Part shown: piece by piece, positions 30,775 to 42,169 of the stretch | How the letters are laid out: every line of letters begins with the position of its first letter | How positions within the stretch are numbered: position 1 is the stretch's first letter | Assembly: GCF_006516955.1 (NCBI RefSeq) | Contig: NZ_VHLG01000001.1 | Span: 186,001 to 250,000 of the forward strand | DNA: 64,000 nt | Direction: 5' to 3' | Origin: Martelella alba | GTDB lineage: Bacteria > Pseudomonadota > Alphaproteobacteria > Rhizobiales > Rhizobiaceae | Translations under genes and position numbers: made by a program | The notes under the pieces: model-generated | Told to the model about the DNA's origin: nothing | Database searches by the model: none | The model's input: the letters and a program-made list of their open reading frames with translations, nothing else

Positions 30775-31596
30775 TCAGGCGCGATATTGCGCTGGCGGCC
30801 AGTTGCCATCAGGCATTTCAACGATGGTGAGATCCTTCACCAGCGCGGCTAGAGCTGTGGCCGCGTGGTCGAGAAGTACCCTGCCCTTTTCAGCTGTTGC
30901 CCGGCTTGCATCGCCGGTGACGCCATCGGGGTGCAGATCCTGTGCCTTCCAGCCAAGCCCGCCGACGCGGCCGCCACCGGGATTGGCGGATAGCTGCGCC
31001 GTCTTGCCCTCGATCTCATCGACAGCTGAACGGAAATCCTCCGCCCTGTCCATCGCCACGAGCTCGGGATGCAGCGCCAGCATCATCGATGTCTCGATAT
31101 CGCCGCCATGGAAGCCGGTACTGATCTCGTGATCGGTGAACAGGCCTTCCGGATAGCCGCTGTCGAACCATGTCGCATAGGCGGCGAGGATATTGTGACG
31201 GACCCGCTGATCCAGCGCCACGACCGACAGCAGGCCGGACTGGCCGCCATGGCTGTTGAAGATCAGCAGGCGTTTCAGACCGGTGGAGCGTACCGCACAG
31301 TCCAGGATTCGCGTCCAGGATTGCATCAGATCGGGTGCCGGATGCGCCAGCGAACCGGCATAATCGAGATGTTCCTGCGAGGCCCCGACCGGCTGCAGCG
31401 GCAGCACCACGGCGGGCACGTCATCCCCGAGCTTTTCCAGCATGGCGGCAATGATGCCATTATTGATCAGGCAATCGGTTCCGACCGGCAGATGCGGCCC
31501 ATGCTGTTCGACGGCGGCGACCGGCAAAATTGCCAGCGTATTGTCCGGCAGCACCGCATGTTCGGGGCTTGAAAGCTCCATCCAGTAGCGTTTCAT
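30775..31596 (-). CDS. creatininase-family amidohydrolase
   Basis: 273 residues. The family's metal-ligand motif is LPVAAVEQHGPHLPVGTD (Glu30, His32, Asp41), with FNSHGGQSG and GGDIETSMML further on, as in creatininase and its relatives that open cyclic amides or remove formyl groups. AGGGAG precedes ATG 31596, which lies one base from the ADP-ribosylglycohydrolase-like gene's stop. It is the last gene of the eight-gene transporter operon and probably acts on a ring or amide produced in that pathway. The exact substrate is unknown. Confidence 0.85.
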   Translation of the reverse strand: MKRYWMELSSPEHAVLPDNTLAILPVAAVEQHGPHLPVGTDCLINNGIIAAMLEKLGDDVPAVVLPLQPVGASQEHLDYAGSLAHPAPDLMQSWTRILDCAVRSTGLKRLLIFNSHGGQSGLLSVVALDQRVRHNILAAYATWFDSGYPEGLFTDHEISTGFHGGDIETSMMLALHPELVAMDRAEDFRSAVDEIEGKTAQLSANPGGGRVGGLGWKAQDLHPDGVTGDASRATAEKGRVLLDHAATALAALVKDLTIVEMPDGNWPPAQYRA

Positions 31597-31597
31597 T

Positions 31598-32647
31598 TCA
31601 GGCTCCCTTGGCAAAGCGTGCATTATAGGCGCTAAGCCCTGCGGCAACGGCGGCAAGATCAAGCCCGTTGATGGCGACAGCTTCGGCAATCAGTCCGTCC
31701 GGAATGTCCGCTGCCCCATTCCACGCTGCAGCAACCGAACCGGCGATCATCGCAATCGTGTCACTGTCATTGCCGCCATTGACGGCGGCAACGATCGCGT
31801 CCCAGGCCGAACCGTTGGCAGCCTTGACCAGACCGAAGGCATGCGGCACGGCCTCGGCCATTGCGACACCATTGCCAACCACTTCGGTCAGTTCGGTGCG
31901 CGCCGCCTCCATGTCTCCCGCATAACGTTCGGCGATTTCGAAGGCGAGTTCAATGCGGCGGATCACACCGGTTCCGCCGACGATGCGGCCGGTTTTCACA
32001 GCTTCCGCCTCGCCAAGCCGGGCCCCTTCAAGCGCTGCATCCTCCAGCGACATGCTGCGATCTTCAGCAAGCCCGACGGCGATCGCACCGGCAACGGCCG
32101 AAGCACCCGAAAAAGCGATCTGGGTATTGTGGGTGGGGGCGGAAAGCAGGCAGGCCAGCCGCACCGCCGCCTCCAGATTGCCCGCAGCCGCACTGCCAGC
32201 GGTTGGCGCGCGCATGGCGCCGCCATTGGAGGTGCCGAACATGCAGGAATAGGCGGCGGGTGTAGCAACATCTTCAGCCCTTGCACCCGCACGCATGGCT
32301 TCCACCGCGATGCGGGTCGTCGGACCAGCGAAACGCTGGAACATTTCCTCATCATTCGACCAGTCGATGAAGCCGGCAATCGCATCGTCGGGACCGGCCG
32401 GCCGGTCAAGCGCGATCAGTCGCCGGGCCATGGCCAGCATCTGTGTTGCATCATCGGTCAGCCGTCCCGGCGCCAGGCCCTTGGCGAAGGGCGCATGTTC
32501 CGGCGGTTGGCGATAGGTCACGACCGGACCGCCAAAGACCTCATTGATCAGCGCCGGATACATGCATTCCGTCGCAGCACCCAGCGCATCGCCAACGCAG
32601 GCGGCGGCCAGTACCGCTTCGATTTTCTGGGCCATATCCGCACTCAT
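31598..32647 (-). CDS. ADP-ribosylglycohydrolase-family (ADPRH) protein
   Basis: 349 residues. Magnesium-site motifs of the family are present at both ends: GDALGAATE with TDDATQM (residues 64-70), and NGGNDSDTIAMIAG (Asp294 and Asp296). Known members cleave N-glycosidic bonds to ADP-ribose on arginine or release the modification from proteins (DraG), but many bacterial members act on small molecules. Here it sits between a PfkB kinase and a creatininase, coupled by start/stop overlap with the kinase gene (4 bp), so a nucleoside-like N-glycoside is the likelier substrate. That is inference. Confidence 0.86.
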   Translation of the reverse strand: MSADMAQKIEAVLAAACVGDALGAATECMYPALINEVFGGPVVTYRQPPEHAPFAKGLAPGRLTDDATQMLAMARRLIALDRPAGPDDAIAGFIDWSNDEEMFQRFAGPTTRIAVEAMRAGARAEDVATPAAYSCMFGTSNGGAMRAPTAGSAAAGNLEAAVRLACLLSAPTHNTQIAFSGASAVAGAIAVGLAEDRSMSLEDAALEGARLGEAEAVKTGRIVGGTGVIRRIELAFEIAERYAGDMEAARTELTEVVGNGVAMAEAVPHAFGLVKAANGSAWDAIVAAVNGGNDSDTIAMIAGSVAAAWNGAADIPDGLIAEAVAINGLDLAAVAAGLSAYNARFAKGA

Positions 32648-33582
32648 GATACTGCATTCTCCCTGTCGCGCAGCCGCTCGGCTGCCTTGTCATATTCACA
32701 TTTTCCGGTTTCGAGAAAATGGGCGGAACAGGCCGTCGCCTGTCGCAGGGCCCTCTCGAAAGCGCTTCCGCGGCGCAGCGCGGTTGCAAGGCCGGCGAGA
32801 AAGACATCGCCGGCGCCAGTGGTGTTCTTCGGCGTTACCTTCAGCGCAGTGACCGTCTGCACCGCGCCATCGGCGAACGCGATCAGCCCTTCGGCCCCAA
32901 GCGTCACGATGGCCCGGCCCGCGCCTTTTTCAACGAGTGTTTTCGCAAGCGTAATGGCGGCGTCTTGAAGATCTGCCCTCACTGAATTGCGCTTCATCCA
33001 GGCTTCCAGCATCTGCCTGTTGGTAACGGCGATATCGGTCCGGGGCAGCACGCGCTCCAGAGCATCCCAGCCCCAGCGCTCGATTTCCGGCAGCTCGAGA
33101 TCGATCATCCGCGACAGGCCAAGTGCTTCGGCCCGTGCGAAAATCGCCGCAACAGCTTCGGGGTGGAAAAGATTGGCAATGACGGTATCGCCCGGCTGAA
33201 GCTCCACTTTGGTTCCGATTGCCTCAAGCGCTTCGATCCGCATCGGGTCGATCAGGATCGCCTTTTCGCCGGTATGATCAACGATGATCATCGCCGAGGC
33301 AGTGGACGCATCGGCCTCGACTTCGACAGCCTCGGTCGAAAGGTCATTCTCCGCCAGCCACTGCATCAGCTTGGTGCCGTCGCCATCATCACCGATGGTG
33401 GAAACGAGGCGGGCATCTTCGCCGAAGCGCGACAGGGCAAAGGCGCAGTTGAGCGGCGGCCCGCCAGCGCGTTCGTCCTTTTCCTTGATGAAGGCTTTCT
33501 CGTCATGGCCAGGCAGATCATCGACCGTCAGTATACGGTCGAGCACCAGCGGCCCGAGGCAATAGACTGCACCCTTGGTCAT
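32644..33582 (-). CDS. PfkB-family (ribokinase-like) sugar or nucleoside kinase
   Basis: 312 residues. The family N-terminal motif ERAGGPPLNCAFALSRFGED binds the sugar, and the C-terminal NTTGAGDVFLAGLA carries the catalytic Asp259 and the anion hole. It phosphorylates a sugar or nucleoside hydroxyl with ATP; specificity is not visible. The start shares an ATGA overlap with the ABC ATPase gene. In this operon it may phosphorylate the sugar released from, or the intact, imported compound. A longer reading to 33732 lies within the ATPase gene and is not family-like. Confidence 0.87.
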   Translation of the reverse strand: MTKGAVYCLGPLVLDRILTVDDLPGHDEKAFIKEKDERAGGPPLNCAFALSRFGEDARLVSTIGDDGDGTKLMQWLAENDLSTEAVEVEADASTASAMIIVDHTGEKAILIDPMRIEALEAIGTKVELQPGDTVIANLFHPEAVAAIFARAEALGLSRMIDLELPEIERWGWDALERVLPRTDIAVTNRQMLEAWMKRNSVRADLQDAAITLAKTLVEKGAGRAIVTLGAEGLIAFADGAVQTVTALKVTPKNTTGAGDVFLAGLATALRRGSAFERALRQATACSAHFLETGKCEYDKAAERLRDRENAVS

Positions 33583-34682
33583 GCGGCCTCCAGCTTCTGT
33601 CCGGTCTTTGCATCGAAAAGCAGAGGTGTGGCATCGGCGATGCGAATATGCGCAGGCGCGCCGAACTGCGGCGGCTTTTCGCGCGATGGCACCGCGAGGC
33701 GATGTTCGCCGAGAGCGACATGCACGAGCCATGCCCCGCCGATATATTCGCTGGAATGAACCTCGCCCGAAACCGTTCCGTCATCGGCCGCATCGGCAAA
33801 GGACAGACGGTCGGAACGAAGGCCGAGCAGCAGAGACCGGCCGGGTGCCGCATCAACGGCGTGCCGAAGCGCGGCTGATGGGGTGAAGGCTGCCCCTCCA
33901 AGCGTCAAACCGCCGTCCTGCGCCTTTTCCACCGGCAGAAGGATCGCCGGCGGATTACCGACAAAGGTGGCGACAAAGGCGGAAGCGGGCTGCTCGTAAA
34001 TCGTCTGCGGGCTGTCATGTTGCAACACATAACCGTTCGCCATCACAGCAACCCGGTCGGCCATGCTCATCGCCTCCTCCTGATCATGCGTGACCATGAC
34101 CGTGGTGAGCCCGATGCGCTCGTGAAGCTCGCGGATATCGACGCGCACGCTCTTGCGCAGCACCGCATCGAGATTGGACAGCGGCTCATCGAGAAGCAGA
34201 AGTTTTGGCCGGATCACCAATGCACGGGCAAGCGCGACGCGCTGCTGCTGACCACCGGAAAGCGCGTTGGGCATGCGCGCCGAAAGTCCGTGCAGCTTGA
34301 CCAGATCGAGCGCCTCGGCGACCCGGTCATCGGCCTCTTGCCCCTTGATACCCCGCATATCGAGGCCAAAACGGATATTCGCATCAACGCTCATATGCGG
34401 AAACAGTGCATAGGACTGAAACACGATGCCGATATCGCGCTTGAAGGTCGGGATCGCATCCAACCCCGCGCCAGCCAGCGCCATCGTGCCCTGGGTCGCT
34501 TTTTCAAGTCCGGCAATGATCTTCAAAAGCGTGGTCTTGCCGCAACCCGACGGGCCGAGAAGCGCAAGAAACTCACCCTTGCGGACGGAAAGCGAAACGC
34601 TCTTCAGCGCCGGTTCCGGTCCGCCATAGTTTTTCATCACCTTGGAGATCACCAGATGATCCGGCGCGTGTTTTTCAGCCAT
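33579..34682 (-). CDS. ABC transporter ATP-binding protein, PotA/spermidine-type
   Basis: 367 residues. Walker A GPSGCGKTT, signature LSGGQQQRVALARAL, Walker B LLLDEPLSNLDA and the H-loop VTHDQEEAM are intact. A C-terminal TOBE-like domain (LLLGLRSDRLSF) makes it the CUT1/PotA type. It drives the importer formed by the two permeases and the binding protein of the same operon. GGAGG is placed six bases before ATG 34682, which overlaps the preceding gene by 8 bp. The nucleoside phosphorylase gene is inserted between it and the permeases, tying uptake and metabolism together. Confidence 0.94.
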   Translation of the reverse strand: MAEKHAPDHLVISKVMKNYGGPEPALKSVSLSVRKGEFLALLGPSGCGKTTLLKIIAGLEKATQGTMALAGAGLDAIPTFKRDIGIVFQSYALFPHMSVDANIRFGLDMRGIKGQEADDRVAEALDLVKLHGLSARMPNALSGGQQQRVALARALVIRPKLLLLDEPLSNLDAVLRKSVRVDIRELHERIGLTTVMVTHDQEEAMSMADRVAVMANGYVLQHDSPQTIYEQPASAFVATFVGNPPAILLPVEKAQDGGLTLGGAAFTPSAALRHAVDAAPGRSLLLGLRSDRLSFADAADDGTVSGEVHSSEYIGGAWLVHVALGEHRLAVPSREKPPQFGAPAHIRIADATPLLFDAKTGQKLEAA

Positions 34683-35502
34683 TCGCATCCTCCCGGTGCA
34701 GGCGGGCAAGCGCCTTCAGGCCCACGGAAATCGCCGCTGTCTGGCCGGAACCGGATTTGTGCAGCTCGCCGGTCACGACATTGTCGCCAACCGAGCAGAC
34801 TGCACCGCCGCGACGGCCGTAAAGGCTGCATAGCGTCAGGATCGCCGCACTTTCACGGTCCGTGTTCAGGATTCCGGCCCGGCTCCAATAATCGATAATG
34901 CCTTTGTGATCATCCTGAAGATAGCCGCCCGGCCCCGGCTTGCCCCAGCCGCAATATTCACTGTCGCCCGAGCGGGTGATGCCGATATGATAGGGATGAC
35001 CAACCTCATCGGCCGCAGCCTTCATCGCGGCAACCACCTGCCAGTCAGCGACCGCCGGATATTCCACCCGCACATGGGCCTTGGTCATCCCCTCATCGCG
35101 CACCGCGCCGGAGGAGATCACGACATCGCCAACGCCGACCTTCGGGCTCCAGGCGCCACAGCCGCCAATGCGGATAACCGTGCTGCAGTCGGTAAAGTTG
35201 AACAGGTCCATCAGTGCCAGTTCCGCTTCCGGCGAACCGGAACCGCCGGAAACAACGGTGACCGGCGTGCCCTCATAGGTTCCCGTGATCGAAGTGAACA
35301 GCCCGGTTTTCGCGGCAAGCTCAGCATTGTCGAGGGCAGAGGCGAGAGAGTCTTCAGCAGCGCCATCGCCGACCACCAGCGGATCAGCAACGGCCAGCAC
35401 GACATAAGGGGCGATCCTGTCACGCTTGAAGCCCGTCAAAAGCGGAATACCGTCACGCACGAAATGCGGCATGGTTTTCATATATTTATATTCTTCAGAC
35501 AT
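34675..35502 (-). CDS. nucleoside phosphorylase-like protein (PNP/UDP family 1)
   Basis: 275 residues of the NP-I fold. The phosphate/ribose-binding segment VTVVSGGSGSPEAEL and the family motif VIRIGGCGAWSPKVGVGDVVI are clear. The usual N-x-E-M-E ribose motif is replaced by NTDRES (Glu217), so the pocket is somewhat altered. Known relatives split nucleosides with phosphate into base and ribose 1-phosphate (uridine or purine phosphorylases). It lies inside the transporter operon between the permeases and the ATPase gene, so it most likely acts on the imported compound. Confidence 0.85.
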   Translation of the reverse strand: MSEEYKYMKTMPHFVRDGIPLLTGFKRDRIAPYVVLAVADPLVVGDGAAEDSLASALDNAELAAKTGLFTSITGTYEGTPVTVVSGGSGSPEAELALMDLFNFTDCSTVIRIGGCGAWSPKVGVGDVVISSGAVRDEGMTKAHVRVEYPAVADWQVVAAMKAAADEVGHPYHIGITRSGDSEYCGWGKPGPGGYLQDDHKGIIDYWSRAGILNTDRESAAILTLCSLYGRRGGAVCSVGDNVVTGELHKSGSGQTAAISVGLKALARLHREDANG

Positions 35503-35516
35503 TTACATGACTTTCT

Positions 35517-36311
35517 TTACAGTCTACGCGACCATTTGAACAGGAACTCGCCGATCAGCGCGGCAAAGAGAATGAAGGCAACAATGGCCGAGCCGATTGC
35601 CAGCGTAATCGGATCAATGCCCTGGCTTCTGAGCTGGGCGTAGAGGCGCACCGGAAAGGTGATCCAGCGCGCGCCGGCAATCAGCGAGGAAACGATGACA
35701 TCGTTGAAGGAGATCAGCAGTGAGAATGCGGCAGACGACACAAGGCCCGGCATGGCGAGCGGCAGAGTGATACGGCCGATCACCCGCATCGGAGAAGCGC
35801 CAAGCGTGGCGGCGGCCTGCTCCAGCAGCGGATCGAGATCGGCAAAGGTCGAGACCATGATGCGCACGGTAAAAGGCATGGTGATGACCGCATGCGCGAG
35901 CACCAGCGCCGGAAGCGTGCCGGACATGCCAAGCTTCGAATAGATCTGCAAAAGCGCGATCGCCCAGACGATCAGCGGCAGCACCAGCGGCGTCATTAAG
36001 ATCGCCTCGATGACCCGGCCACCTGCCGGTTTGAAGCGCACCAGCGCGAAGGCCGCAAGGCCACCGAAGATGACCGAAACGAAACCCGCCAGCACGGCGA
36101 CGATCAGGCTGACGGTGAGCGCGCTTTTATATTCACGGCTCTCAATGGCTGCCTGATACCAGCGCAGCGAATAATCCTTCGGCGGAAAACGGAAGAAACT
36201 GGCGTCATCGAAGGAGGCAAAGATCAGCACGGCAATCGGTGCAAGAAGAAAGATAAAGGCAAGGATGGTCCAAAGGAAGCGGGCCGAGACGGCAAAGCCA
36301 TAGGTTTTCAT
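35517..36311 (-). CDS. ABC transporter permease, PotC-like
   Basis: 264 residues with six membrane helices. The EAA-type loop reads EQAAATLGASPMRVIGRITLPLAMPG, the ATPase-coupling site of ABC importers. The protein matches the PotC/CUT1 second permease. The start overlaps the stop of the first permease gene by 4 bp (ATGA), so the subunits are co-translated. The substrate cannot be read from the permease itself. Confidence 0.92.
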   Translation of the reverse strand: MKTYGFAVSARFLWTILAFIFLLAPIAVLIFASFDDASFFRFPPKDYSLRWYQAAIESREYKSALTVSLIVAVLAGFVSVIFGGLAAFALVRFKPAGGRVIEAILMTPLVLPLIVWAIALLQIYSKLGMSGTLPALVLAHAVITMPFTVRIMVSTFADLDPLLEQAAATLGASPMRVIGRITLPLAMPGLVSSAAFSLLISFNDVIVSSLIAGARWITFPVRLYAQLRSQGIDPITLAIGSAIVAFILFAALIGEFLFKWSRRL

Positions 36312-37192
36312 GCCGTTATCCCCGTTTCAGCGGAAACCGGGTCAGGTTCGCGGGCGAAAAGCTTCGTCAGCGCCGAGCCAATGCCGAGACCGATCGCCAG
36401 AAGCGCAAGCATGACAACGGCAATCGCCGAGGCAAACGGCCAGTCGAGCACCAGCGAGGCCTGCTGATAGGCCATGGTGCCGAAGGTGGCGATCTTGCCC
36501 TGTCCGAGGATCTGCGGCGTGACAAAGGAGGTGAGCGATGCGCAGAAGACCAGCACCGAACCGGCGACAACGCCGGGCGCAATCAGCGGCAGGATCACCC
36601 GGCGCCAGATGACAGGCATCGGCGCGCCAAGCGTGGCCGCTGCCGCCTCGACATCCTTCGGCAGGTGCGACAGCGCATTGACCAGCGGCAGCAGCATCAG
36701 CGGCAGAAAGGCCTGAACAAGGCCGATGACGACGCCGGGTACCGTGCCGAGAAACTTTATGCTCGATCTGATCAGGCCCATTTCCTTCAGGATCGAATTG
36801 ATCACACCAAGCGGACCGAGAAGATGCAGCATGCCAAGCGATGGCAGCAGCGCGCCGGAGACGAGCGGCACGAGGATCAGCGCCAGAAGCAGGCCTTTCG
36901 CCCGGCCGGCGCTGACGGCGATCTGACGGGCGACAGGCAATGCGATGATGAGGCACAGAATGGTCGCAAGCGCGCTCAGCCAGAGCGTGCGGAAGAACAC
37001 TGCGGCGAAATAGCTGTCGGAGATGAGGCGCGCATAATTGGCGAGGCTGAAGCCGTCAGCCATCAGCAGCGATCCCTCGCCACGGACCTTGAAGGAGGTT
37101 ACGACCAGCCAGAGGAAAGGCAGCAGGAAAACGCCCCCTGAAAGAATGAGGGCCGGAGCCAGAAGAAGCGTGGCGCGTCTGTTCATCGGCAT
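36308..37192 (-). CDS. ABC transporter permease, PotB-like
   Basis: About 294 residues with six membrane helices and the coupling loop DVEAAAATLGAPMPVIWRRVILPLIAPG. It pairs with the PotC-like permease. Candidate starts are ATG 37192 and 37186, neither with a clear ribosome-binding site; the reading frame also extends upstream across a hairpin, which is not expected to be translated. It follows the binding-protein gene after a 93-bp gap holding that hairpin. Confidence 0.9.
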   Translation of the reverse strand: MPMNRRATLLLAPALILSGGVFLLPFLWLVVTSFKVRGEGSLLMADGFSLANYARLISDSYFAAVFFRTLWLSALATILCLIIALPVARQIAVSAGRAKGLLLALILVPLVSGALLPSLGMLHLLGPLGVINSILKEMGLIRSSIKFLGTVPGVVIGLVQAFLPLMLLPLVNALSHLPKDVEAAAATLGAPMPVIWRRVILPLIAPGVVAGSVLVFCASLTSFVTPQILGQGKIATFGTMAYQQASLVLDWPFASAIAVVMLALLAIGLGIGSALTKLFAREPDPVSAETGITA

Positions 37193-37229
37193 CACAATCG
37201 AAAAATCTAAAAGCAGATTGGGCATGAGC

Positions 37230-37260
37230 GCCCGCCGCACGGGGGATCTGCGCGGCGGGC
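37230..37260 (-). terminator. intercistronic hairpin between binding protein and permease genes
   Basis: GCCCGCCGC and GCGGCGGGC form a perfect 9-bp stem with a 13-base loop, with no T run. Such hairpins in ABC operons usually protect the upstream mRNA so that the periplasmic binding protein is made in excess over the membrane parts; that is the likely role here. Confidence 0.65.
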
Positions 37261-37285
37261 CGTTCAGGAACTTTTCAGGCCGGAA

Positions 37286-38317
37286 TTACTGGCCGAGAAG
37301 GTCCTTGTTCCAGCGCTGGGTCCAGTCGCTGCGCTGGCTGATGACATAAGGCCAGTCGAGCTGAACCAGGCTGTCGACCTCTTCCGGCGTGTCGATCACA
37401 TCGGCAGAAACCGTTTCAGGCAGCTTCACATTCTTGTTGGTCGGGCCGAAATAGATCTGTTCGGCGTAGTCTGTCTGGTTCTTCACGCCGAGCGCCTTTT
37501 CGGCAAACATCTTGGCCAGTTCCGGCTCGGGGGAATTCTTGACGGTGCAGAGCATGTCGCGCACCAGAACCGGACCCGGATCGGTCGGGAAGGAGAAACC
37601 GATATCGGGATGTTCCTTCAGCGCGGAGAGCACATAGCCCGAGATCATCGGCGCCATGACAACTTCGCCGGCATCCATCATCGCAAAGACCTCGTCCAGA
37701 TTGGTGTAGGTCATGGCGATCGGCTTCAGCTCTTCAAGCTTGGCGAAAGCGGCATCGGGATCATGCTCGTCAGTACCGGCAAGGCGGGCGGCAACGCCGA
37801 TCAGGCCATCACCTTCCGAACCCGGATACTGCGAAACGGCGATCTTGCCGTTATATTGCGGGTCCCACATGTCCTTCCATTCCGGCGGATGGTCGACCAG
37901 TGTCTTGTTATAGGCAATGCCGAGACCAACCAGAGACATGGCGTAGCAGCCATTATTCATGCCGTCCCAGATGTTCTTGTACATGTCACTGTCCGGATCG
38001 GGCGCATTGACGATACCATCGGCCAGAGCCTGCGGTGCCTCGTACATGTTAAGGAAGGCAATATCCATGGTCGGATTGTCCTTCTCGGCGTAGATGCGGG
38101 CCATGCGGTCGCCCGTGCCGCCAAGCACGAATTCAACCTTGGCGCCGGTTTCCTTTTCAATCGGATCGGCGGCATTTTCGCGCAGCAGACGTTCGATATC
38201 GCCGCCCCATACGCCGACAACCAGCGTGTGACCGGAATAGTCTTCTGCCGCAAAGGCGCTGACGGCCGAAAGGCCGATCGTGCCGGCCAGAAGCATGCTC
38301 GTGAGAGACTTCAGCAT
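37286..38317 (-). CDS. ABC transporter periplasmic binding protein, PotD/spermidine-type
   Basis: 343 residues. A signal peptide (MLKSLTSMLLAGTIGLSAVSAFA) leads to a PotD/SBP-type fold, starting EDYSGHTLVVGVWGGDIERLL, with GGTGDRMARIYAEKDNPTMD and VGLGIAYNKTLVDHPPEWKDMWDP in the first lobe. Relatives bind polyamines, putrescine-like or sugar-like solutes. It is the first gene of the operon with nucleoside phosphorylase, ADPRH-type, PfkB and creatininase genes, so a nucleoside-like or cyclic-amine solute is suspected. Ligand not identified. Confidence 0.9.
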   Translation of the reverse strand: MLKSLTSMLLAGTIGLSAVSAFAAEDYSGHTLVVGVWGGDIERLLRENAADPIEKETGAKVEFVLGGTGDRMARIYAEKDNPTMDIAFLNMYEAPQALADGIVNAPDPDSDMYKNIWDGMNNGCYAMSLVGLGIAYNKTLVDHPPEWKDMWDPQYNGKIAVSQYPGSEGDGLIGVAARLAGTDEHDPDAAFAKLEELKPIAMTYTNLDEVFAMMDAGEVVMAPMISGYVLSALKEHPDIGFSFPTDPGPVLVRDMLCTVKNSPEPELAKMFAEKALGVKNQTDYAEQIYFGPTNKNVKLPETVSADVIDTPEEVDSLVQLDWPYVISQRSDWTQRWNKDLLGQ

Positions 38318-38479
38318 GGTGGATCATTCCCCTTGTTTGTTTTGATCGGGTTACCCCGGCGCATGGAACGCGGCAAGCCAGACACAGCGGCTGATCGAGA
38401 GATCAAGGCGACAGGCACTGGCTGCGCTCTCCGGCAACGATTAAACGGCAGGAATTGACAAACCATAAGTGTCTTGGGG

Positions 38480-38496
38480 CTAATACAGTCTATTAG
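38480..38496. promoter_or_regulatory. palindrome upstream of the transporter operon
   Basis: CTAATA and TATTAG around CAGTC form a perfect 17-bp inverted repeat overlapping the LysR stop codon, about 160 bp before the binding-protein start. It is a candidate operator for the LysR-type regulator, although its spacing is not the textbook T-N11-A. Confidence 0.4.
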
Positions 38497-39476
38497 TCCA
38501 GACGAATGGGTTCACGCGAAGTTTCACTTGAAGGAAGGGTATCGAATTCGCTTATCTCTTGGGCAACCCGGCGCAGCAATTTTCGGAACCACTGATTGCC
38601 GGGCGAGAGATGCGACCGTTCATGCCACAGTGTGTAGAAACTCATTTTCGCCAGTTCTTCAGGCGCCGCCACGATGGTGAACCGGCCGGACAGTGCCATC
38701 TGTTCGGCAAAGGGGCGCGAACTGGTGAAGACGAGGTCGGTGCGCTCCAGCATATGCGGCACCAGCGTGAATTCGGCAACCGACATGGCGATGTTGCGCT
38801 TCACATCCAGCTGCGCCAGCTGTCCGTCGATCGGGCTGATGGCTGGGCTGGTATGCGGCGTCGGCGACAGATGATCGAGCGTCAGATAGTCCTCAAGGCT
38901 GACGCGATGCCGCCCCGCCAGCGGGTGATCATTGCGCATCACCAGCACGATGTCGGTTTCCAGCAACGGGGCGAAACGCAGATAGTCGCGCGGGGTCGGC
39001 CAGTTGCCGATGACGAGGTCGAGCTTGCCGCTTTCCAGCTCGGAGAAAATCTCGCTCTCCTCGGGGATCGAGCAGAAATCAAGCGGCATCATCGGCGCTT
39101 CCCGGCGCACCAGTTCGGCAATGCGCGGCATGAAGAAAGTGCCAAGACAATTGGCGGCATAGACGCGGAAACGCTTGTTGTAACGGGCCGGATCGAAGCT
39201 TTCGCCACTATCGGCGAGCGCATCGATATCCTGAAGGATCCGCGCCACCTGCCCCCTTATGCGAAGCCCCTTTTCCGTCGGGATCAGTCTAACCCCGCTT
39301 CTGACAAGCAGCGGATCGCCGAGAATTTCGCGAAGGCGCTTCAGCGCCAGCGAAACGGAGGGCTGGCTCTGGCCGAGAATGGTGGCGGTTTTGGAAACGC
39401 TGCACTCGTCCATGAGAACATTCAGAATGCGCATCAGGCGCAGATCAAGACCATGGTCGCCGGCAAGATTTGCCAT
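38493..39476 (-). CDS. LysR-type transcriptional regulator
   Basis: 327 residues. The N-terminal winged helix reads LRLMRILNVLMDECSVSKTATILGQSQPSVSLALKRLREILGDPLLVR, followed by the LysR substrate domain (FRVYAANCLGTFFMPRIAELV). ATG 39476 is preferred over an upstream ATG at 39500. It lies between the transporter operon and the divergent deaminase/dehydrogenase genes, so it probably controls both, with the pathway substrate or an intermediate as inducer; this is inference from position. Confidence 0.9.
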   Translation of the reverse strand: MANLAGDHGLDLRLMRILNVLMDECSVSKTATILGQSQPSVSLALKRLREILGDPLLVRSGVRLIPTEKGLRIRGQVARILQDIDALADSGESFDPARYNKRFRVYAANCLGTFFMPRIAELVRREAPMMPLDFCSIPEESEIFSELESGKLDLVIGNWPTPRDYLRFAPLLETDIVLVMRNDHPLAGRHRVSLEDYLTLDHLSPTPHTSPAISPIDGQLAQLDVKRNIAMSVAEFTLVPHMLERTDLVFTSSRPFAEQMALSGRFTIVAAPEELAKMSFYTLWHERSHLSPGNQWFRKLLRRVAQEISEFDTLPSSETSREPIRLD

Positions 39477-39563
39477 GAGACATGCTCCCTTTTTCGTCAA
39501 AGGGTTTCACAATGCCGGCGCGCGGCCCACCACAGGCGCCCCGACGGTCCAATAATCATCCCC

Positions 39564-39578
39564 GCTTTTGATAAAAGC
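39564..39578. promoter_or_regulatory. palindrome between the LysR gene and the deaminase gene
   Basis: GCTTTT and AAAAGC around GAT form a perfect 15-bp inverted repeat in the divergent gap, 48 bp before the deaminase start. It is a candidate binding site of the adjacent LysR regulator. Confidence 0.5.
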
Positions 39579-39625
39579 AAGCTTTGTGCCACACAGCACA
39601 TCAAGACATCGCAATGGAGAATGAA

Positions 39626-41131
39626 ATGGCAATCCTGATCAGGAACGGTCTCGTTATCGACCAGTCGCTTCCCGAACATCCCTTCACGCGCGGCGACGTG
39701 CTGATCGATGGTGACCGGATTGTCGCCCGCGGTGCCGATCTTTCAGAACGCGCCGCCGGCTTTGCCGATCTCGAGACAATCGATGCCAGCGACAAACTGG
39801 TCATGCCCGGCTTCATCGATGCCCATATGCATTCCAATGAAGGCTTCGAGATGGGCCGCTATGACAACCTGCCGCTCGAAATCTGGCTCTCGGAAGTCTA
39901 TCCGCCGCTCTATGCAAACCAGATGTCCTGGCGCGACCATTATCTGCGCGCCATGCTGGTGGCGATCATTTCGCTGCGCTCGGGCGTCACCACGCTGCAG
40001 GACGATGTGATCAACATTTCCGGCACACCGGACGCCGTCGATGCAACGGCAACGGCCTTTCGCGATGTCGGCCTGCGCGGATGGATCACGGCGTCGATGT
40101 GGGATGAGAGCTATTGCAACAGCCTGCCCTTCATCGGCAACCTTGTGCCGGCAGAGCTGAAAGCCCGCCTCGACGCAACACCTGCGCCGGACTGGAAGGC
40201 GCAGATCGAACTGTTCGAGGAATTGTCGAAGAACTGGCACGGCAAAGACAATATGCGCATCATTCTCGGCCCCTGCGGGCCGCAGCGCTGCTCCGAGCGT
40301 CTGCTGCAGGAGGTCGCCAGCCTGTCCGAGGCGCGTAATCTGCCCGTGCACTGCCATGTTCTGGAAACCAAGACGCAGGCCGTGACCGGGCAAGAGAAAT
40401 ATGGCCGCACGCTGGTCGAGTTCCTCAAGGATATGGGGCTTATGACCCATCGCCTGACGATGAACCACGCCATCTGGTTGACCGACAGCGACATTGCCAC
40501 CATGGGCGCTGCCGGATGCTCGACCACCCACAATCCGCTCGCCAATCTCAAGCTCGGCTCAGGCGTGTCTCCGGTGCGCAAGATGATGAAGGCTGGCGTC
40601 AATGTCGCGCTCGGCTGCGATGGCGTCGCCTCTGCCGATACCGCTGATATCTTTGTCGCCTTCAAGGTAGCCGCCGGTCTGCACAAGATTGGTAGCTTCG
40701 ATTACAACGACTGGATTTCGGCGCATGACGTCTATAACATGGCGACGACCGCCGCTGCCCGCACCAGCCTGATGCAGGACGACGTCGGCACGCTGGCGGA
40801 AGGCAAGCTTGCCGACATCATCTTGATGGACAGGAATGACTGGGGCTTCATGCCGCTGCATGACCCGATCAAGAAAATTGCCTTCTCGGTCAATTCGGAC
40901 GTGGTGACCCATTCGATCGTTGGCGGCAAGGTGGTCATGCGCGACCGAAAGCTCACCGCCATCAGCGAAGATGATCTGCGCGGCGAAATCGCGGAAGCCG
41001 CGGCCCGGTTCGAGCGCGACATATGCCCTGCCATGAGCAAGGGGGCCACCGAGGTTCGCCCCTATCTCGACCAGATGTATGCTAAGGCGACGCAACGCGC
41101 GCTGCCAATCCATCCGCGCGTTGGCAGCTAA
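39626..41131 (+). CDS. amidohydrolase of the ATZ/TRZ, SAH/guanine-type deaminase family
   Basis: 501 residues from ATG 39626, chosen because GGAG lies six bases before it. Metal ligands follow the family: HxH in PGFIDAHMHS (67 and 69), HCHVLE near 251-253, NHAIWL and Asp in GCDGVASADTADIF. The signature CSTTHNPLANLKLGSG is that of cytosine/guanine/SAH-type deaminases and triazine hydrolases, enzymes that remove an amino group from a nitrogen heterocycle. Substrate not identifiable; the surrounding operon favours a nucleobase or nucleoside-like ring. A dehydrogenase gene follows after a hairpin. Confidence 0.88.
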   Translation: MAILIRNGLVIDQSLPEHPFTRGDVLIDGDRIVARGADLSERAAGFADLETIDASDKLVMPGFIDAHMHSNEGFEMGRYDNLPLEIWLSEVYPPLYANQMSWRDHYLRAMLVAIISLRSGVTTLQDDVINISGTPDAVDATATAFRDVGLRGWITASMWDESYCNSLPFIGNLVPAELKARLDATPAPDWKAQIELFEELSKNWHGKDNMRIILGPCGPQRCSERLLQEVASLSEARNLPVHCHVLETKTQAVTGQEKYGRTLVEFLKDMGLMTHRLTMNHAIWLTDSDIATMGAAGCSTTHNPLANLKLGSGVSPVRKMMKAGVNVALGCDGVASADTADIFVAFKVAAGLHKIGSFDYNDWISAHDVYNMATTAAARTSLMQDDVGTLAEGKLADIILMDRNDWGFMPLHDPIKKIAFSVNSDVVTHSIVGGKVVMRDRKLTAISEDDLRGEIAEAAARFERDICPAMSKGATEVRPYLDQMYAKATQRALPIHPRVGS

Positions 41132-41140
41132 CGCGGCAAA

Positions 41141-41170
41141 GGCCGGGCGCGGCAACAAGCGCGCCCGGCC
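41141..41170 (+). terminator. strong intercistronic hairpin after the deaminase gene
   Basis: GGCCGGGCGCG and CGCGCCCGGCC form a perfect 11-bp stem with an 8-base loop, nine bases after the stop codon; no T run. It may reduce read-through to the dehydrogenase gene or stabilise the upstream mRNA. Confidence 0.65.
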
Positions 41171-41188
41171 ATACAAGGAGAAACGCCC

Positions 41189-42169
41189 ATGCGCATTGCC
41201 GTCATTGGCGCCGCCGGCATGATCGGTCATGAACTCACCCGTGAGCTGGTCACGACGGACCGAATCAATGGCCAGAAAATCGAGCAACTGATTCTCAGTG
41301 ATATCCGTCCGGTCGACACGAAAACCGATGAGACGCATATCACCGAGGTTATCGGCGACGCTGCGGACAGTCGCGTTGTCGAGACCATCCTGACAGCACG
41401 GCCAGACGTCATTTTCCATGTTGCCGCAACAGCCATGGGCCAGGCCGATCGCGATTTTGCAATTGGCTATCACATCAATTTCGACACGGTCCGTACACTG
41501 GCCGAGGGGCTGAGACTTGCCGGTGAAAGCCTCTGCCCTCGCCTTGTTCACGCCTCCTCAATCGGTGTCTTCGGCGGCCCCTTTCCAGCCGTTATCGAAG
41601 ACCATCACACGCCATGCCCGGACAGTTCCTATGGGGCGCAGAAGCTGATGAGCGAAACGCTGATTGCCGATTATTCGCGCATGGGATTCCTCGATGGAAT
41701 CTGCCTGAGACTGCCGACAATCGCCATTCGGCCTGGCGCTGCAACACATGGAAATTCTGGGTTCTTTTCCAATATCATACGAGAACCTCTTCATAATAAA
41801 GATGCGATTTTGCCGGCCTCCGACAATGTCCGCCACTGGCTCGCTTCACCGAAAACGGCCGTTGCCCAGCTGATCCATGCAGCCACTCTCCCGAGCGCCG
41901 ATATTGACGGTAGCCGCGCCCTTACAATGCCCGGAATTTCGGTGACTGTCGCCGAGCTTCTGGATGCACTCAAAGCCGAGGCCGGAAAGCACGCACTGTC
42001 ACGGGTCAAGCGCCAGCTCCCACCACTCTATCAGGCCGAAGACTTCCCGCAGCGCTTCGCGACCAGCCGCGCGCATGCGCTCGGATTTCCCTGTCTTGAG
42101 CAGACCGCATCTGACCTCATCAACGATTATCTGGCGACCTCACATGTCCAGCAAAACCCTGACAGATAA
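41189..42169 (+). CDS. NAD-dependent dehydrogenase/epimerase, DenD-like
   Basis: 326 residues of the extended SDR family. The NAD motif is VIGAAGMIGHEL (glycines at 8-14), the catalytic Tyr-x3-Lys is YGAQK, and LVHASSIGVFGG supplies the Ser. The pattern matches DenD, the D-erythronate dehydrogenase of four-carbon sugar-acid catabolism, and related nucleoside-diphosphate-sugar epimerases. GGAG precedes the ATG. It follows the deaminase on the same strand and could oxidise a sugar or sugar acid released by the pathway; a four-carbon acid substrate is plausible but unproved. Confidence 0.85.
   Translation: MRIAVIGAAGMIGHELTRELVTTDRINGQKIEQLILSDIRPVDTKTDETHITEVIGDAADSRVVETILTARPDVIFHVAATAMGQADRDFAIGYHINFDTVRTLAEGLRLAGESLCPRLVHASSIGVFGGPFPAVIEDHHTPCPDSSYGAQKLMSETLIADYSRMGFLDGICLRLPTIAIRPGAATHGNSGFFSNIIREPLHNKDAILPASDNVRHWLASPKTAVAQLIHAATLPSADIDGSRALTMPGISVTVAELLDALKAEAGKHALSRVKRQLPPLYQAEDFPQRFATSRAHALGFPCLEQTASDLINDYLATSHVQQNPDR

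Follow-up and report, generated by a model that had tools for sequence, protein, structure and literature searches.

An importer operon of Martelella alba that may recover ribose from purine-derived N-ribosides

Introduction

The window analyzed here is a 64,000-nucleotide stretch of Martelella alba DNA (contig NZ_VHLG01000001.1, positions 186,001 to 250,000). Within it lies an operon in which the genes of a PotABCD-type importer are joined to those of an NP-I enzyme, an ADP-ribosylglycohydrolase family protein (ADPRH), a PfkB sugar kinase and a creatininase-family amidohydrolase. The question is what compound would call for such a combination. Comparison of the genes across genomes suggests, on balance, that the operon takes up a purine-derived N-riboside, frees its ribose by hydrolysis and phosphorylates that sugar, and that the substrate of ADPRH in it is a small molecule. 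Two unrelated N-glycosidase families appear in one role in different versions of the operon and each is also found fused to the kinase, which puts a strong constraint on the reaction. A literature search, confined to open-licence papers, returned no description of this system, including any of ADPRH-PfkB in catabolism or transport.

Results

Organization of the operon

Eight minus-strand genes were confirmed at 30775..38317 and assigned to families by Pfam. From the binding protein to the creatininase-family gene they are as follows:

37286..38317, minus strand, solute-binding protein of the ABC importer, SBP_bac_8 (Pfam)
36308..37240, minus strand, ABC importer permease, resembles PotB but scores under its cut-off (Pfam, NCBIfam)
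35517..36311, minus strand, ABC importer permease, resembles PotC but scores under its cut-off (Pfam, NCBIfam)
34675..35502, minus strand, NP-I (uridine phosphorylase-like) enzyme, probable nucleosidase (Pfam, alignment)
33579..34682, minus strand, ABC importer ATPase, ABC_tran and TOBE_2 (Pfam, NCBIfam)
32644..33582, minus strand, PfkB sugar kinase, ribokinase-like (Pfam, NCBIfam)
31598..32647, minus strand, ADPRH, proposed small-molecule N-ribosidase (Pfam, motifs)
30775..31596, minus strand, creatininase-family amidohydrolase, not creatininase by the NCBIfam cut-off (Pfam, NCBIfam)

The gaps between successive genes are 45, -4, 14, -8, -4, -4 and 1 bp, as measured with starts at 34682 (ATPase), 33582 (PfkB) and 31596 (creatininase-family), each of which is internal to the longest open reading frame. 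The spacing and the Pfam assignments agree with an earlier note on this DNA, which had described the eight genes as one tight unit of these families.

Recurrence of the gene set

An NP-I search of a species-level genome collection gave 16 loci. With duplicates merged (L030/L051, L028/L054, L029/L055 and G293/G660), the gene set was found in 14 genomes of the window's kind, a count that takes in the window, and in rearranged form in three spirochaetes and one Anaerolineaceae. Judged by title or kinship, the 14 genomes are Hyphomicrobiales-type Alphaproteobacteria, save L059, whose record bears no more than the title Proteobacteria, and L050, titled Marinicella sp. W31 (90% NP identity); the window NP-I is 97% identical to that of Martelella sp. 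HB161492. By tblastn, PfkB and the creatininase-family gene were found in 14/14 of these genomes and ADPRH in 13/14. Because order and content recur across genomes, the gene grouping is not due to chance. The earlier note had held that its proposal would fall if the genes did not co-occur elsewhere, and they were found together in other genomes.

The operon is rare, since the NP profile at 1e-40 matched only the window's own genome among 398 sampled genomes of its phylum. In the spirochaete phylum sample the profile matched 20/247 genomes at the same threshold; only G670 and G664 reached about 1e-154, and the remaining matches lay between 3e-46 and 7e-41. In a plasmid collection, ADPRH had no match at 1e-30, and NP-I had a single distant relative, from Rhizobium leguminosarum, in a different, sugar-importer-like context. 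This NP-I relative (L098:11899-12876, on pRL1) is 46% identical, carries the same phosphate-site losses as those described below and stands in another neighborhood with ABC importer genes.

Pairing of ADPRH with PfkB

The ADPRH protein scored 145.8 bits with Pfam ADP_ribosyl_GH (PF03747), for which the gathering score is 26.2 bits, and the TDD and DxDT motifs, presumably metal motifs, are intact in 14/14 aligned rows. It is only about 20-22% identical to the ADP-ribosyl hydrolases DraG and ARH3, and fell far below the DraG (TIGR02662) equivalog cut-off (38.8 vs 337.05 bits). The window PfkB likewise scored below the cut-off for Ribokinase (TIGR02152; 122.5 vs 299.65 bits).

ADPRH was searched in 297 genomes of the order at a threshold of 0.001, giving 26 match places in 25 genomes. 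Twenty of the 26 were taken as 20-kb stretches, the window itself, G121 and four weak partial matches being excluded. PfkB adjoins ADPRH on the same strand in 20/20 of these loci, with a gap of 0-126 bp between the matches. In Kaistia dalseonensis (G293, with the same places as G660) the two are fused in a single open reading frame of 618 amino acids (L044:9229-11085, minus strand).

A similar pair is found in Escherichia coli, where yegTUV encodes a transporter, the ADPRH protein YegU and the PfkB protein YegV, with the GntR regulator YegW/GgaR. As in the window, the ADPRH gene directly adjoins the PfkB gene; the operon they share also encodes a putative nucleoside transporter. YegU is 28% identical to the window ADPRH and YegV 25% to the window PfkB. 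In contrast to the window, the yegTUV stretch examined has no NP-I, creatininase-family or aminohydrolase gene, and its transporter is of the MFS rather than the ABC type. In PMC10819704, YegTUV is reported to be without known function and is linked to glycogen accumulation.

Taken together, the PfkB-ADPRH fusion, the PfkB-NADAR fusion described below, the 20/20 adjacency and the yegUV pair indicate that the likeliest task of ADPRH in this operon is to free a sugar for PfkB to phosphorylate. The earlier note had considered a small-metabolite substrate unusual for this family; it is less so than thought, because the ADPRH-PfkB pairing is common, E. coli yegUV included. A testable metabolic role is thereby offered for the ADPRH proteins that stand beside PfkB kinases in many bacteria, among them the uncharacterized YegUV.

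The possibility was considered that ADPRH is a genuine ADP-ribosylation eraser that exerts post-translational control over the operon enzymes. Its fold and metal motifs do match those of DraG and ARH3. However, PfkB adjoins it in all 20 loci and is once fused to it, and no ADP-ribosyltransferase was seen among the island genes run on Pfam, so that the likelihood of an eraser appears slight.

Other ADPRH cassettes were noted in the same loci. Those of L031-L035, all of one genus that includes Kaistia dalseonensis (G293), have the arrangement adenine deaminase - PfkB - ADPRH, with an ADPRH 49-53% identical to that of the window; the cassettes of L032 and L034 have isochorismatase and hydantoinase genes as neighbors. 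Most of L036-L046 carry another type of ADPRH and PfkB cassette, in which a GntR-type regulator adjoins in 8/11 and ABC permeases are near in 9/11.

Replacement of ADPRH by NADAR

In the spirochaete operons (L056, L060, L062) the genes for the importer, NP-I, PfkB and the creatininase-family protein are present at 27-53% identity, along with one for a GntR-type regulator. Their binding proteins are 47-51% identical to that of the window, as compared with 75-99% in the loci of the window's kind where the protein is present. In the Anaerolineaceae, the importer and NP-I genes lie on contig L057, and the PfkB, NADAR and creatininase-family genes on L064. No ADPRH gene was found in the three spirochaete clusters or in the Anaerolineaceae cluster; a search of the four genomes gave no match in three and a weak partial match (3.5e-5) in G664.

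NADAR scored over the TIGR02464 cut-off in 4/18 operon genomes, and these are exactly the three spirochaetes and the Anaerolineaceae; the other 14 entries searched have none over it, and a search of the window's own genome also found none. The four operon NADARs scored 113.6-132.6 bits against a cut-off of 73.7. In L056 and L062 the NADAR gene lies inside the operon, one gene after PfkB, and in L064 it sits between PfkB and the creatininase-family gene, adjoining PfkB. In L060 the two are fused in a protein of 466 amino acids, to which Pfam assigned PfkB (1-288) and NADAR (326-466).

The NADAR family as a whole is found in 18/251 and 23/247 sampled genomes of the two phyla, three operon genomes counted in. 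As a control, 39 other NADAR loci of both phyla were taken with about 6 kb on each side where contigs allowed. PfkB was present in 1/39, at 4.6 kb and on the opposite strand, vs 4/4 operon loci. The creatininase-family gene was present in 0/39 vs 4/4, a weak comparison because in two operon loci that gene is about 7.2 kb from NADAR. A narrower control of about 1.5 kb on each side, too narrow for the distances in L056 and L062, gave 0/39 with PfkB or the creatininase-family gene.

According to PMC11543638, NADARs of the YbiA type cleave riboflavin intermediates (by citation there) and others cleave ADP-ribosyl-guanine. The L062 copy (L062:11147-11596), which fills the ADPRH role in the spirochaete version as its relative does in the Anaerolineaceae, is 45% identical to E. 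coli YbiA; unlike YbiA, the operon NADARs sit in an importer operon and one is fused to PfkB. We infer, within fairly narrow constraints, that the reaction common to ADPRH and NADAR is hydrolysis of an N-riboside to the free sugar.

A divergent 423-residue amidohydrolase gene (L062:3945-5216, with relatives in L056 and L060) is 83-98% conserved across the spirochaete operons.

The NP-I enzyme

The NP-I protein is clear in its fold and family but fell below the uridine phosphorylase (TIGR01718) equivalog cut-off (160.5 vs 280.3 bits). An alignment was made with Udp, DeoD and Mtn of E. coli, from which L051 and L054 (duplicating L030 and L028) and L058 (a run of N in the gene) were left out. Udp has R30, R48, R91 and T94, which we take to be its phosphate-site residues. 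R30, R48 and T94 are lost in 17/17 operon copies and R91 alone is kept, although the R30 position is less certain because the alignment there holds a 7-residue insertion. The four residues are all kept in 13/13 control proteins, which were 13 of 18 possible ones from the spirochaete-phylum matches at 3e-46 to 7e-41. The operon proteins have DRE where Udp has EME, and 17/17 have an Asp that is absent from Udp but stands near the leaving group in DeoD (D204) and Mtn. The closest known enzymes of the family are Udp, DeoD and the methylthioadenosine/S-adenosylhomocysteine (MTA/SAH) nucleosidase, from which the operon protein is set apart by the lost phosphate-site residues and, as regards Udp, by this Asp.

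The loss of three of four phosphate-site residues, together with the purine-type Asp, suggests that NP-I is probably a hydrolytic, purine-type nucleosidase that no longer uses phosphate. It had been taken earlier for a nucleoside phosphorylase, which the missing phosphate-site residues make the less likely assignment. A structure model had a mean pLDDT of 74.6 and fell below 50 over residues 179-195, the counterpart in the alignment of the base-binding stretch of Udp; as this confidence is only middling, no argument was drawn from the pocket.

That one operon holds two different glycosidases raises another explanation, namely that the substrate is a diribosyl or alpha-riboside nucleoside, such as 2'-O-ribosyladenosine from poly(ADP-ribose) or cobamide-derived alpha-ribosides. 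The alpha bond would fall to ADPRH and the beta nucleoside left over to NP-I. Alpha ribosides are substrates of ADPRH enzymes, and the related ADPRH-PfkB pair in Kaistia is accompanied by adenine deaminase. The creatininase-family protein, however, is left without a role, and this explanation is considered rather improbable.

The importer

The ABC ATPase scored 315.3 bits against the PotA cut-off of 355.6, and the permeases 143.3 vs 348 (PotB) and 138.6 vs 326 (PotC). The binding protein resembles 2-aminoethylphosphonate binders and scored 65.5 vs 395.3 bits with PhnS. The earlier concern that this might prove to be a polyamine transporter is eased by the failure of the importer to reach the curated PotABC cut-offs. 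On such an account, the importer would carry a polyamine-like or phosphonate solute, the enzymes would act on unrelated substrates and the co-location would reflect shared regulation only. The likeness of the subunits to PotABC and of the binding protein to 2-aminoethylphosphonate binders speaks for it, but all four scores lie below the curated cut-offs and the same importer is kept with the NP-I, PfkB and creatininase-family genes in spirochaetes. There seems little chance that it is correct.

The creatininase-family protein

Residues E30, H32, D41, H116 and E168 of the creatininase-family protein, presumably its metal ligands, are kept in five aligned sequences. The protein scored 68.7 bits against the Creatininase (TIGR04448) equivalog cut-off of 235 and 90.6 against the MftE (TIGR03964) cut-off of 172, and was far below the IolN cut-off also. 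With ArfB (NF033501, cut-off 180 bits) it scored 17.6 bits, the best of five operon members reaching 27.3. The opening of a cyclic amide ring, as proposed in the earlier note, is therefore not established, the creatininase score being so far below the cut-off.

DraG and ARH1 cleave ribose off a guanidino nitrogen. ADPRH might in the same way take ribose off the guanidino nitrogen of creatine or creatinine riboside, while the creatininase-family enzyme would turn the cyclic form into the open one and back. The textbook linkage for DraG/ARH1 is that of guanidino N-ribosides, a creatininase-family gene is in the operon, and creatine riboside is a real metabolite. Nevertheless, the creatininase score is low, no creatinase or sarcosine enzyme was seen among the operon genes run on Pfam and NCBIfam (the genomes were not searched for these), and the titles and opening abstract lines of the literature matches listed mention no bacterial use of the compound. 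The NP-I and 8-oxoguanine-deaminase-family genes would also be unaccounted for. This explanation is very unlikely.

Discussion

The proposed pathway

The preferred reading remains the recovery of ribose from a purine-derived N-riboside. The PotABCD-type importer would take up a nucleoside-like compound. NP-I would hydrolyze a purine-like ring-N riboside without phosphate, as its lost phosphate-site residues and purine-type Asp suggest. ADPRH, or NADAR in the spirochaete version, may hydrolyze ribose off an exocyclic or ring-opened amino group, to judge from the family activities and the exchange, and PfkB would phosphorylate the freed sugar, consistent with the 20/20 adjacency and with the fusion of PfkB to either glycosidase. 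The creatininase-family enzyme would hydrolyze an amide; our best guess is removal of the formyl group from a formamidopyrimidine riboside. The guess was made because ArfB, a formamidopyrimidine-nucleotide deformylase, shares the superfamily, and there is no sequence match behind it. The aminohydrolase encoded beside the operon may deaminate the base or the nucleoside. We infer both the identity of the substrate and the order of the reactions. The earlier idea of uptake and stepwise dismantling of an N-glycoside is upheld in outline by the co-occurrence and the glycosidase-kinase fusions, but the phosphorylase and ring-opening steps it contained are not.

As to the substrate, a formamidopyrimidine, oxidized or alkylated purine nucleoside is our best guess, though a doubtful one. 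Its merit is that every enzyme would have a job: NP-I on the closed ring, the creatininase-family enzyme on the formamide and ADPRH/NADAR on the ribosylamine. If it is true, the operon is a dedicated recycling route for damaged or modified purine nucleosides. A broader proposal, speculative and unlikely as a whole, is that ADPRH and NADAR, families of ADP-ribosylation erasers, are interchangeable ribosidases in one pathway on ring-opened, oxidized or alkylated purine nucleosides from damaged or modified RNA debris. The creatininase-family enzyme would deformylate, ADPRH/NADAR would cut the ribosylamine and PfkB would capture the ribose, and E. coli yegTUV would be a reduced relative.

Flanking genes and evidence to the contrary

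The unit 30775..38317 had been placed correctly, but the island in which it lies is larger, 30775-42169, and takes in three further genes:

38493..39500, minus strand, LysR-type regulator, conserved with the operon, upstream of the binding-protein gene (Pfam)
39584..41131, plus strand, divergent aminohydrolase of the TRZ/ATZ, 5'-deoxyadenosine and SAH deaminase group; the start is likely a few codons inside
41189..42169, plus strand, DenD-like NAD-dependent dehydrogenase/epimerase on the divergent side, just below the D-erythronate dehydrogenase cut-off

The aminohydrolase, LysR and binding-protein genes are present in 13/13 genomes of the window's kind whose contigs extend that far. The window aminohydrolase has deaminase motifs and scored 216 bits vs the 8-oxoguanine deaminase (NF006055) equivalog cut-off of 532. 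In PMC13054789, the catalytic Gln of the guanine-deaminase cluster is Q74 of poNdmH; by our own motif reading, this would be the Gln after the HxH motif.

Several observations weigh against the proposed pathway. The operon of Kaistia dalseonensis (L052) is without ADPRH, the only such genome of the 14; the species has an ADPRH at another locus, 53% identical, beside PfkB and adenine deaminase. The ADPRH/NADAR exchange is seen in few lineages and may represent one or two events, and the Anaerolineaceae genome has NP-I on another contig than its NADAR cluster. The two families are not exclusive elsewhere, as a distant ADPRH relative (21-30%) stands beside NADAR in 4/39 control loci. The creatininase-family protein is nearer MftE than ArfB. 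In the window's kind, the aminohydrolase carries Glu at the place of the catalytic Gln in 12/12 sequences, a set that excludes L058 (gene absent, contig ends) and L059 (truncated open reading frame), the L094 row, taken in a wrong frame, having been dropped from the alignment. A guanine base is therefore unsupported in the window's lineage. The 8-oxoguanine-deaminase family is over its cut-off in 11/19 genome entries, the window's own genome among the 11; two of the 19 entries are one genome. Finally, the DenD-like gene is left unexplained.

Guanine-type chemistry does have some support in spirochaetes. The operons of L062 and L056, two of the three, contain a different aminohydrolase, which has the Gln and scored 590.3 and 590.4 bits vs 532 for 8-oxoguanine deaminase. 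As evidence, these two operon genes are weak because the family is common in these genomes, and their substrate is not settled because the relatives include N2,N2-dimethylguanine hydrolases, with which the PA 8-oxoguanine deaminase clusters in PMC13054789.

A separate 8-oxoguanine-deaminase-family gene is found in the window's own genome away from the operon (G000:C54:173584-174924, L095; 604 bits). In the four control loci in which a distant ADPRH relative accompanies NADAR (L159, L181, L182 and L184), the relative, again at 21-30% identity, lies 37-101 bp from the NADAR gene. In Marinicella sp. W31 (L050:12129-13348), the PfkB and ADPRH frames look broken, from either sequencing error or real decay. 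There is no hint of a riboswitch, since the one match that Rfam gave in the window stretch was below threshold (20 bits vs 218) and seven relative loci gave none at gathering scores. The DenD-like protein fell below the D-erythronate dehydrogenase (NF043036) equivalog cut-off (293.8 vs 325 bits). A gene of this kind is nearby in 6/14 genomes of the window's kind. The copy in Bauldia (L061) and the creatininase-family gene overlap at the end of the latter.

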